Shown here: positions 58,492-64,000 of the stretch, piece by piece | Position numbering within the stretch: the first letter of the stretch is position 1 | Layout of the letters: the number at the start of each line of letters is the position of its first letter | Notes under the pieces: model-generated | What the model was told of the DNA's origin: nothing | Database searches by the model: none | Seen by the model: the letters and a program-made list of their open reading frames with translations, nothing else | Made by a program: the position numbers and the translations under genes | Source: Peribolospora baueri | Lineage: Eukaryota > Basidiomycota > Peribolosporomycetes > Peribolosporales > Peribolosporaceae | Assembly: GCA_029717555.1 (NCBI GenBank) | Contig: JAMDHS010000082.1 | Location: 26,314-90,313 of the forward strand | Length of the DNA stretch: 64,000 nucleotides | Direction: 5' to 3'

Positions 58492-59997
58492 TCACCAACT
58501 CTCGTGGCCTCCGCTGACGAAAACGTCCGAACCAGTGACAAAAGAGCTAGAATCGCTGGCGAGCCAGACGGCTGCGCCGCGGATCTCGGAGGTCCTGCCG
58601 ATCCGGCCAAGGGGGTTCATCGATGCCCACTTCTCTTCCATGCCCGGGACCTTGTCGAGGAGGACGTTGGTCATCCTAGCAAGATGGCGATGGCGTCAGA
58701 AAAGGGTGAGGAAGGACAGGCGGAAGGAAGTGGCTCGCTTACTTGGTGCGGATGTGACCGGGGGACAAACTGTTGCACCTGATCTTCTTCGGTCCCAACT
58801 CGCACGCCAGACTGCGTGCCATCTGTACGACAGCGGCTGGGCACAAGGGAAGACGGGGAACCGGATTCGTCAGACGAAGCGTTCAGCACAAAAACGCTCT
58901 CGAGGGGTTTGTTTGTCTGCTCACATTTGCTCGAGTTGTAAGGCACCCAGTGCATGTCCCGGTTGGCGATGCTGCCGGACATGGAGGCGACGAGGATGAT
59001 CGAGCCTCCTTCGTTCATCCTCCGAGCCGCCGCTTGAGCAGTGAAGAAAACTGGCAGGAGGGATGGGGAAAAGGTGAGAAAAGAACAACCGATGCGCAGG
59101 AAGGGAGGAGGAAGAAAGCAGCAACCCACCTCCGTTGGCATTGACGTCGAACACCTTCCTAAACTCCTCCGGGGGATAGTCGAGGGCGTCCCACTTGGTC
59201 TGCAGAATGCCAGCTGCGGCGACGCAGACGTCCAGCCTTCCGGCCTCGTTCTTGATGTGCTCCATCACCTCGTTGAGGTTGTCCGGTTTGGTGACGTCCG
59301 TCTGGCCTATGTAGTGGAGGGTGCGCTTGGGGTGGAAGTGGGAGACGTGGTTGGCGATGTGATTGAAGTCATCCGAAGGCGTGGGGGGCAGGCTAGAATC
59401 CCGGTGCAAAGGTCAGAGGACGCTGGGCACGGTGGAACGAACTTGGGTCGGCCAGCGAGACCGGAGGACTCACTCGAGCACGTACACGTCCGCCCCGGCC
59501 TCGGCAAAGGCGAGGCCCATTTCGAGACCCAATCCGCCGTTGCCACCGGTGATGACGGCGACCTTGCCTTCGAGACTAAACTCGCCAAAGATGGTCGGGT
59601 TGGTGAGCTCCTCGCCGATCATGCCTTTGCGAGCGGGCGTCTTGCGTTTACCACCGCCGCCGTCAGGGTCGACGTGTTCGAATCCGACGGGAGCGTCGTC
59701 GATGGAGCAAGAGCGGCCGGCGGCGACGCGCCTGAGCACCGCATCCATGCCCACGTCCTCCGTGTTCGGCTTGGAGGGGGGGGCGGTGGAGGAGAGCAGG
59801 TTGAGGCGGGGCGGCGTGGGCGTGGGCTTTGCGCGCGCGGACGTTGGCGTGGGCTTTGTGCGGGCTGAGGAGGTGGTGAAGTGGGCGGAGAGGGGAAGGG
59901 AGCATGAGCGAGAGAGGCCGGGAGGCGAGCGAAGAGCGGCTGCGACGGGGGAGATGAGGCGGCGAGCGGGCGCTCTTTGCAGGGCGATGTAGGCCAT
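58492..59997 (-). CDS. Short-chain dehydrogenase with long N-terminal extension
   Basis: Five exons (59997-59474, 59392-59130, 59050-58925, 58836-58743, 58675-58492) give 396 residues. The SDR part starts near residue 140: GKVAVITGGNGGLGLEMG (cofactor), YVLDLPP, VCVAAAGIL, catalytic Ser in ILVASMSGS, YNSSK (YxxxK), IRCNSLSPGHIRTK, and the end WLASDSSSFVTGSDVFVSGG. It resembles the fungal mannitol-dehydrogenase/L-xylulose-reductase-like SDR group; substrate unknown. The first about 50 residues (MAYIALQRAPARRLISPVAA and on) are rich in Arg, Ala and Ser and free of acidic residues, like a mitochondrial presequence, followed by a Pro/Thr/Lys repeat (TKPTPTSARAKPTPTPP). Mitochondrial location is inference. 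Confidence 0.9.
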
Positions 59998-61278: not shown

Positions 61279-63428
61279 ATGGGCGCCCAGCTCTGCGAGA
61301 ACGACGTTGCCATTGGCCCCACTTCGGCGTGTAGGTTCGACTTTACGATCCGGTTCGAGAACAGCATTCTTCAAATCCTCCCCGACGCCCTCTTCCTCCT
61401 CACCGCCTCGCTATCCATCGTCCGCCTCTTCATCGTGCGCCACTCCCGAGCTAACCCTGGCAACCAAAGGGCGACGAAACGCGTCTTAGACTGGCTTAGC
61501 GCTCTTCCTTGGCGCCCTGCTCGCCGCCTCCCAGGCCGCCCTTCTGGCGACTTGGACAGACGGCTCGGTTCGAGGGACGATCGGCAAGGTCGCCGGCGCG
61601 GCGGCAGGTTTGAGCTTGAGTGCTTCGGTGAGCGTGAGCCGCTCTCACGACACGTTCATCGAATGCGCTCGCTATCGACGTGCGCATAGCCACTCCGACC
61701 AACCCTTCCTTTCTGTCGCCCTCTCCCTCAGCTCTTCCTTTTGCCCTTCTCTTACCTCTGCCTAAGTCCGCACCCTCGCCCTCCTCGGTTTCTTCCCTCA
61801 CGACACTGCCGTCGATCACCCGCGCAAGGCCTATGTGTCCGTGGCCGCCACCGGTCTCGTCGTACGCGTCCTGCTCGCCGCCGTCGAGATGGGCCAAAAC
61901 AGGCCTTTGTTTAAAGAAGGCGACAAGGTGCTTCCACGACCCACATGTTCTCTCTATCCGAACCAAAAGTCTGAAATGCCGTGTCCCTCTCTCCCCTTCC
62001 TCGCCCAGCCGCTCACGCCAGAAGGCTCCTCCTCCGTGTGGGCCCGTGCTACATCTGGCTCATCCCTTTCATGATTCTCGGCAGGAAAAAGATTATCACC
62101 ATGGCCGACCTCTATCCGTTGGAACGTGGGAGGGAATCTGGCCCCATCAAAGTTGCGCTTCAGCAGGGGATTGACAAGGTAAAAAGGAAGGAGCAAGAAA
62201 AGTACTGGCTGCTGAAATGTAGCCTCGCCGTCTTCGGGTGGACCTTTTTCATGTGCGTCGCTTTTTTTTTCTGTTCTACTAGTCCCCATTCTCGTTGACG
62301 AGGCGTGACCCTCGTTCGGACGCGTTTCGTTTCGTACGTCGGCAGGCCCATCCTTCCACGCATGGTCATGGTGCTCTGCAACTTTGTACAACCCTCCTTG
62401 TACACGATGCCACGGTGAGGATTCCCCTCTGGCTTTAATTCTCTCCGCGAAGCGCTGCCCGCACACGACGCACCTGATCCATTCGGCCATCTTGATTGTG
62501 TCTGTCTGTACCCGCAACAGGAGTGGATAACGTCGTATGAGGGCGATCAACCGAACAACGTCTCCGTCGGCTGGGGCCTGCTCGGCGCGTATACCTTGAT
62601 CTACTCGCTCCTGACTCTGTCCACAGGTACGACGCCGACGCCGCTGTCAGTTCGTTTGCGCAGTCCAAACGCGAGCCGGTCGGCGCCGTTAATGCATTTC
62701 GCGCTTCCCTGTGACCAAACAGCTTCGTTCGTATTGGGAAGCAGCATGGGGAATGTCCATCAAGTATCGCGCCGCCACCGTCGGCGTCCTATACAATAAG
62801 GCCCTTCGTTTTTCGGTGGCTTCTGCACGAGAGCAAGGTGCCGGCGCAGCCAACTCGTTGATGAGCGTGGACGTGCAGAGGATCATGGAGTCTCTCCACC
62901 TTGTTCACGAGTTGATCGCCGCCGTCATCAGCGTTGGCTTGTCCAGCTACTTGGTACGCCCCGCCTCCTCTTCCGACACTCTTAGTTTCTTTTTTTTTGC
63001 GCACGCTAAGCCTCCTCCATTCACTTTCAGCTGTACACACAAACCTCTTGGGCTTTCTTTGCACCCATCGTCGTCATCCTCATCGGTCTCGCCATCTGCA
63101 CCGTGGGCGGTCAGAAAATGCCGAAATACCGCACGGAGTGGTTCGAAGGGACGAGCAAACGGTCCAACCTGGTGGTGAGCCGACGAATGTCTTCGATGCG
63201 GTCGAGGGACCCGAATCGACCGTGTCTTCGATGCGCTCGCTCGACGGACCCCAATCGACCGCTTATCACGCGTCCTCCGAGCCCCAGTCATCGGTGTTCA
63301 ATAACATCGTTCCCGTCAAGCTTTCCTCGTACGAAGGATTTGCAGCAAGACGGATCGGCGCCCTTCGGGCCGTCGAGTTTGCCGCATACAAAAAGTTCCT
63401 ATACGTCATTTGCTGGACGTCCCATCCC
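61279..63428 (+). pseudogene. ABCC (MRP)-type transporter, frameshifted and truncated by a retroelement
   Basis: Exons can be traced at 61279-61434, 61490-about 61607, about 61767-61936, 62009-62269, 62346-62414, 62521-62629, 62723-62952, 63031-63174 and 63288-63428. Family marks: TMD0 start GAQLCENDVAIGPTSACRFD, FENSILQILP; TMD1 ITMADLYPL, YWEAAWGMSIKYRAATVGVL, YNKALRFSV, NSLMSVDVQRIMESLHLVHE, then NNIVPVKLSSYEGFAARRIG and LRAVEFAAYKKFLYVI. This is where ABCC proteins continue to the rest of TMD1 and two ATPase domains, but the sequence runs into retroelement DNA at about 63429. At about 62048-62056 the frame needed for TPEGSSSVWARA and that for YIWLIPFMILG differ by one base. Splice phases around 62414/62521 and 62629/62723 also do not match simply. 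Both nucleotide-binding domains are missing from the window. Confidence 0.82.
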
Positions 63429-64000
63429 TGTTGTACTGCCCCGGAACTCGGGCGTGCTAATCGACGGCGAAGGATAGAAAAAATCCTGGCTGCAGGCAGT
63501 ACGCGGGGAGAAACCGGCGAAGGCGGTGAACGCACGTGCAAATCGATCGAGATCAAGGTAACAAGGTATCGGGGCCAGGGAGCAAGGACAAAGAGTCAAG
63601 GGCAAGGAGCTAGGACTGGGGACAAGGACTCGGGAGGAGATGAGCGGGGCTAGGGTGAGCTTCAGGACGCGACGGCGCCGGGGTCCGTCCGGGGCGCAGG
63701 GTGGTCATGGTCGTAATCTTGGATGAATTCAGGAGAATTGGCGAGGTTCTTGAGAGGTTCCCAAGTGGCTTCCCAAAACGGGTAGCCACGCCACTTGACG
63801 AGTATTCGCGGCGGTTGCCTGAGCCGCGACGGTCTAGAAGAGCTTCAAGTTTATATTCCGGTTCTCCATCATCAAGGAGAACAGGATCGGGAGGCTGGGT
63901 CCTGTCGGGGGGGCCTAGGTAAGGCTTGAGCAAGGAAGTGAGAAAGACCGTGTGTAGACGAGACAAGGAAACTGGGAGGTCGAGCTCGAAGGCGATGGAG
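63429..64000 (-). mobile_element. 3' end of a Ty3/gypsy chromodomain retrotransposon (antisense to ABCC)
   Basis: On the minus strand the right edge of the window reads AFELDLPVSLSRLHTVFLTS, LLKPYLGPPDRTQPPDPVLL and EYKLEALLDRR, the C-terminal integrase part of chromoviruses, followed in a shifted frame by a chromodomain (KWRGYPFWEATWEPLKNL, then NSPEFIQDYDH) and stop at about 63662. The stretch 63429-63661 would be 3' non-coding sequence plus 3' LTR; TGTTGTACTGCC at 63429 has the TG start of an LTR and sits where the ABCC homology ends. I see no clear polypurine tract, so the exact LTR borders are uncertain. The element continues beyond the window. Confidence 0.8.
63662..64000 (-). pseudogene. 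C-terminal end of retrotransposon pol (integrase tail and chromodomain), frameshifted
   Basis: The frame for integrase tail (HTVFLTSLLKPYLG, DDGEPEYKLEALLDRRG) runs to NRREY at about 63804; the next chromodomain residues (KWRGYPFWEATWEP) are in another frame, consistent with loss of one base between 63798 and 63806. Chromodomains bind methylated histone H3 and guide integration into heterochromatin in fungal chromoviruses. The copy shown is therefore probably inactive. The 5' part lies outside the window. Confidence 0.8.

Follow-up and report, generated by a model that had tools for sequence, protein, structure and literature searches.

Near its right end, the DNA analysed here (the window, 64,000 nucleotides) probably carries what is left of the 5′ part of an ABCC (MRP/YCF1-type) transporter pseudogene. 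Its homology breaks off within TMD1, where the 3′ end of a dead chromovirus follows in the opposite orientation. The window covers bases 26314-90313 of contig C159, and the genome searched comprises 22.1 Mb in 178 contigs. Window position 64000 is the last base of the contig (its base 90313). Because the contig stops there, the right flank of the element, its second LTR, the target duplication and the rest of the ABCC gene lie outside the sequence. The first-pass annotation had overlooked this contig end, as well as the lack of a common reading frame among the ABCC exons and the damage to the element, which has two deletions and has changed frame.

The ABCC remnant

The plus strand carries the pieces of the ABCC gene, and a divergent gene precedes them on the minus strand:

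58492-59994, minus strand: SDR (short-chain dehydrogenase) gene, divergent to the ABCC remnant and about 1.3 kb away, apparently intact
61279-61434, 61490-61627 and 61732-61755, plus strand: ABCC exons 1-3 with TMD0-like membrane helices, joined in frame by GT-AG introns
61756-61771, plus strand: frame break 1, separating exon 3 from the remaining TMD0; a 16-base gap, too short for an intron with any donor
61766-61927 and 62009-62046, plus strand: last part of TMD0 and beginning of the linker, from the frame reading
62045-62049, plus strand: frame break 2; a 5-base gap, too short for an intron with any donor
62047-62252 and 62346-62414, plus strand: linker with the first helix of TMD1, joined in frame across a 93-base intron
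62404-62529, plus strand: probable frame break 3, with no GT-AG solution
62521-62626, plus strand: TMD1 piece (the EWITSYEG... reading), from the frame reading
62723-62953, 63031-63174 and 63288-63428, plus strand: three TMD1 exons, in frame with GT-AG introns

The TMD1 is of the ABC exporter type, and its closest relatives are in the ABCC (MRP) family. The best PDB match of the 172-residue product of the last three exons is MRP1 (8f4b; E 8.2e-12; query residues 3-166), over chain residues 179-342, which correspond to 383-546 in full-length chains, and 55 distinct PDB sequences were matched at E up to 0.1, those listed being named as ABCC members, CFTR, SUR or YCF1. The same product matched the Pfam family ABC_membrane (E 2.8e-9) over profile positions 80-218 of 274, and because the match stops at 218, the domain is incomplete. 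The earlier description of an MRP-type reading that stops in mid-domain at about 63429 is therefore borne out by these three in-frame exons. The first-pass annotation had also named a TMD0 in front of this partial TMD1; the TMD1 part stands, and the TMD0 part is weak, with a Pfam TMD0_ABC match at E 0.001-0.0017, under the curated cut-off, and no match of the TMD0 front in PDB. No Pfam match was found for the frame 61766-62074, and a search of PDB with the linker returned nothing significant (the top match was an unrelated photosystem protein, E 0.54, followed by an ABCC family member 2 chain, E 0.59).

Compared with ABCC/MRP-type transporters such as MRP1 and YCF1, the remnant is alike in the match of its TMD1 to MRP1, ABCC2, ABCC3 and YCF1 chains and in its weak TMD0-like front, whereas it has no nucleotide-binding domains, its TMD1 is incomplete, and the frames of its exons clash. 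No nucleotide-binding domain was found in the ABCC part up to 63428, and because none precedes the element, the gene of the window cannot make a working transporter.

Frame breaks within the ABCC reading

The ABCC reading was divided into 11 fixed pieces with 10 gaps between them, and each gap was tested for direct continuation or for one GT-AG intron without a stop. Seven of the 10 gaps were solvable and three had no GT-AG solution, so that the pieces do not form a single continuous reading frame after splicing. In the SDR gene, which served as a control for this intron test, in-frame joins were available for all three gaps tested, the third of which probably contains an additional exon that the test does not demand. 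All three of the SDR pieces scanned matched SDR models in Pfam, two of them above the cut-off, and the earlier remark that the locus lies next to functional genes is consistent with these results.

For break 3, a loose set of donors and acceptors (GC/AT and AG/AC) yielded five solutions, whereas strict GC-AG introns of at least 40 bases yielded none. Splices of the GT-AG type that skip a piece were available for all three breaks: three for break 1 with the omission of exon 3, seven for break 2 with the omission of the linker piece, and nine for break 3 with the omission of the piece 62347-62414. None of them is convincing, since either a membrane helix is lost or sequence that is not ABCC-like is included. 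Between the TMD1 piece at 62521-62626 and the next exon (gap 62614-62734) there is a single GT-AG solution, and it includes residues that otherwise read as intron.

A search of other species for homologues of the TMD1 exon gave 44 candidates, none of which reached E 0.01; the evidence for the frame breaks therefore consists of the intron test, the reading of frames and some weak matches. Elsewhere in the window, a bZIP-like ORF had four matches among 7995 scored candidates, three of them named and distant (Rickenella mellea, Schizopora paradoxa and Mycena indigotica). These three species are basidiomycetes, and the window probably comes from a basidiomycete too.

Sequencing errors close to the contig end would mimic such frame breaks and are a conceivable source of them. 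Our best reading is that the ABCC gene appears to have been a pseudogene already before the junction arose, its own frame being broken in two places or more. The transporter would then have lost, or have been losing, its reading frame.

The chromovirus fragment

From 63429 to the contig end, the sequence belongs to an LTR retrotransposon on the minus strand, preceded by a short flank:

63423-63428, no strand assigned: CATCCC, the 6 bases between the ABCC reading and the LTR end, which also flank the LTR end of the C166 copy
63429-63677, minus strand: remnant of the 3′ LTR, 249 of the 357 bp of the C166 LTR
63710-63802, minus strand: chromodomain of a Ty3/gypsy chromovirus (Pfam Chromo, E 6.5e-10, above the cut-off)
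63919-63996, minus strand: integrase SH3 (Tf2-1-like) end, cut by the contig end (Pfam SH3_Tf2-1, E 0.0014, under the curated cut-off)

Fungal clades have been described for chromoviruses, the chromodomain-bearing Ty3/gypsy LTR retrotransposons (PMC2864245). Our genome search found sequence related to this element on five contigs, C159, C166, C116 (76-77%), C67 and C53. The minus strand of 63429-64000 aligns with C166:2409-3124; over the 572 aligned bases there are 7 mismatches, and three gaps measure 1, 67 and 76 bases. The 3′ LTR of C166 is 357 bp long (TGTAG...AACA) and directly follows a purine-rich tract, AGGAGGAGGGCAA, an order that is the same in C116. In the window copy, this polypurine tract is deleted, and the LTR retains its outer TG/CA end at 63429 while lacking a 76-bp internal piece and the inner 32 bp. 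A related solo LTR of 335 bp (TG...CA), with its limits found by a scan of possible CA ends, lies at C53:22339-22673 (L024 5340-5674) and is flanked on either side by the same 5 bp, GCCTC, an exact duplication. TTAGGG telomere repeats are present in the genome; one of the contigs that end in them is C53, where this solo LTR sits about 2.2 kb from the telomere. Because the LTRs on C166, C116 and C53, the last solo and flanked by a duplication, are related to it, the reading of 63429-63677 as an LTR is supported.

The earlier description of an LTR-like TG start followed by the end of a minus-strand chromovirus was thus correct. Its naming of an integrase-chromodomain holds for the chromodomain, and the integrase SH3 end is weak; the C116 relative matches SH3_Tf2-1 at E 8.4e-21. 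The chromodomain and the integrase end are in different frames, and the same frame change occurs in C166. The element of the window is a dead, decayed 3′ fragment. It resembles chromoviruses in the chromodomain that follows a weakly matched SH3_Tf2-1 integrase end, in an LTR with TG...CA ends, of which the outer one is kept in the window, and in the 5-bp duplication, which was seen only at the related solo LTR. It differs from them in that the window contains neither a 5′ LTR nor a polypurine tract, and the integrase core and reverse transcriptase, absent as well, would lie past the contig end.

The junction and its copy on C166

The ABCC homology runs out at 63428 and the LTR begins at 63429. 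Past this point, reading by eye found no ABCC-like sequence in the open TMD1 frame, and the DNA matches the LTR; a continuation of ABCC across 63429 was therefore rejected. An in-frame continuation of ABCC domains through an intron was one of the findings that the first-pass annotation had named as speaking against its own reading. The ABCC alignment stops at residue 166 of the 172, and GT dinucleotides occur at 63405 and 63419; because of both, it is possible that the last ABCC exon ends before the junction and that the element is located inside an intron.

The flank of the LTR connects the window with C166. In a pattern search of the genome, the LTR end followed by GGGAT occurred exactly only on C159 and C166, and two further places with 3 mismatches are attributable to chance because a reversed control pattern gave 8. 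The C67 copy diverges from the C159 and C166 copies 4 bp before the LTR end, and C166 is the only other copy found with an intact LTR end. According to its homology with the C116 element, the C166 copy begins at base 2405; the end of contig C159 corresponds to C166 base 2409, which is 4 bp before the element homology ends on C166. A TPR array on C166 (TPR_10, 3e-44) ends approximately 30-60 bp before the element, at 2346 according to Tandem Repeats Finder and at 2372 according to self-comparison. The array (L021 183-2430) has a unit of 135 bp.

Because the 6-bp flank is common to both loci, independent integrations on C159 and C166 would have had to hit identical target bases by coincidence. 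The comparison suggests that the two copies are probably related by duplication of DNA and not by two integrations; duplication of one segment accounts for the common flank and would account for the common end. Either of the C159 and C166 loci may be the older, so the original insertion may still have been the one into ABCC.

A candidate for the missing 3′ half

Pfam searches of the genome for the missing part gave matches at other loci: 32 for PF00664, with all 38 candidates scored, and 21 for PF00005, with 19 of 78 candidates scored. The PF00664 search could miss a diverged TMD2 split by introns, because the split exons of the window itself went unreported. When the ABCC pieces of the window were compared with the frames of 17 fetched stretches, no close relative was found; the best match was on C91 (36% over 50 residues, E 8e-5), followed by one on C31 (E 0.001).

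A genome search with an NBD2 query, in which all 32 candidates were scored, gave 20 matches, with C129 in rows 17 and 20 (E 1.2e-5 and 4.6e-5). At C129:3716-5092 (L048 716-2092) there is an ABCC fragment that extends from the end of TMD1 to NBD1 and NBD2; TMD2 is absent. As read by eye, NBD1 runs almost straight into NBD2, and the fragment has frame changes of its own. Two of its pieces matched no Pfam family, and the others matched ABC_tran at 0.053, under the cut-off, and at 4.7e-7. Its best PDB match is YCF1 (E 0.0003), and MRP1 (E 0.0047) is aligned from residue 581. The fragment is another piece of an ABCC pseudogene.

By count, about 28 residues more precede the point aligned with MRP1 residue 581, and the ABCC reading of the window, when extrapolated, reaches about MRP1 residue 552. 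The two ABCC parts thus look complementary, with no overlap between them. The DNA at 63330-63428 did not align with the DNA upstream of the C129 fragment (L048:561-730): the score was 15 against a shuffle mean of 15.2, and 536 of 1000 shuffles were as good. A wider comparison of the window end with C129 yielded just a 19-base match, a figure without a shuffle control. How the two halves resemble the other ABC loci is compatible with one gene or with two. Upstream of the C129 fragment is what appears by eye to be the end of another gene, and no LTR of the family of the window element was found on C129. From these comparisons, the C129 fragment is possibly, and even likely, wreckage of the gene of the window.

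C129 shares one further segment with the window:

61296-61753, plus strand: 458-bp segment of the ABCC 5′ end, intron included, with a 99.8% copy at C129:30774-31231, minus strand

The sequence that flanks the two copies of this segment differs on each side, and the copy on C129 lies approximately 26 kb from the ABCC fragment. A 55-bp integrase SH3 piece, 94.5% identical to the C116 element, is also present on C129 (L047 1568-1685), 13 bp from TPR sequence.

Origin of the junction

The locus had been presented as a direct view of transposon disruption. This claim is only partly supported, in view of the apparent frame breaks of the ABCC gene itself, the decayed state of an element with no visible second LTR or target duplication, the 6-bp flank common to C166, and the candidate 3′ half on C129, a contig with no LTR of the family. 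A simple retrotransposition is nevertheless quite possible, though somewhat short of probable. A complete chromovirus would have been inserted antisense into an exon or intron of a then-working ABCC gene; the frame breaks would have arisen later; and the sequence directly past the contig end would contain the second LTR, the 5-bp duplication and the remaining half of the gene. The position of the junction exactly at an LTR end with a TG/CA terminus, the 5-bp duplication at a related LTR of this genome, and the stop of the contig within repeated sequence agree with such an insertion. However, the C166 copy has the same 6 bp past its LTR, for which the independent chance is approximately 1 in 4000 (4 to the power 6), and the contig stops 4 bp from the truncation point of that copy. 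Moreover, the polypurine tract and the inner LTR end are deleted, and no ABCC 3′ half flanked by this LTR was found in searches that, for PF00005, scored just 19 of 78 candidates.

A rearrangement associated with the transposable element is just as credible. Here, a segment that contained the end of a 5′-truncated chromovirus and 6 bp of its old flank would have been joined to a broken ABCC gene, with the 3′ half now on C129. The flank and, to the limit of the contig, the truncation point are common to C166, and the C129 fragment starts approximately where the ABCC reading of the window stops, with no LTR of the family nearby or elsewhere on that contig; C129 also has the 99.8% copy of 458 bp of the gene start and the 55-bp integrase piece beside TPR sequence. 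Against this, the C129 fragment does not overlap that of the window and could belong to a different paralogue, the common truncation is deduced from the contig end and not seen directly, and C159, C166 and C129 may be unlinked or lie in another order. The break probably arose through the element in one of two ways: by retrotransposition into ABCC, with the segment copied to C166 afterwards, or by a rearrangement that carried in a 5′-truncated element from a place like that on C166. These histories fit about equally well and cannot be told apart here.

We regard it as unlikely that the junction is an assembly chimera, with ABCC and the element at separate places in the genome. In favour of a chimera, only 572 bp separate the junction from the contig end, and this sequence is present elsewhere at about 98-99% identity, but the junction coincides with the LTR end plus 6 bp, and the 7 mismatches and three gaps relative to C166 indicate that the element part is not simply C166 sequence joined by mistake. 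Still less probable is a module of TPR repeats and the truncated chromovirus 3′ end that was copied round the genome as DNA and broke genes at its landing sites. The TPR array near the C166 element, the SH3 piece 13 bp from TPR sequence on C129 and the end of C159 4 bp before the C166 truncation would fit such a module; however, TPR repeats also occur on C21, C126, C119, C98 and C57 and elsewhere on C166, and among the contigs of the TPR search only C166 spans both TPR and the element. If true, it would mean that a fragment of a retroelement disperses TPR repeats without retrotransposition.

Meaning of the locus

We consider the 5′ remnant of an ABCC pseudogene beside the end of a dead chromovirus to be the probable identity of the feature. 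No such locus was mentioned in the titles and abstract openings of the papers found. The locus is chiefly a caution: where a gene breaks off at a transposon close to the end of a contig, this alone does not count as evidence for an insertion, since the gene could have died earlier and a rearrangement could have brought the transposon fragment. Pseudogene remnants next to fragments of dead elements at contig ends are a known kind of thing, and this one represents ordinary wear of the genome and not a clean new knock-out. Genes commonly decay in this way, with transporter paralogues being lost next to LTR elements that are themselves decayed.
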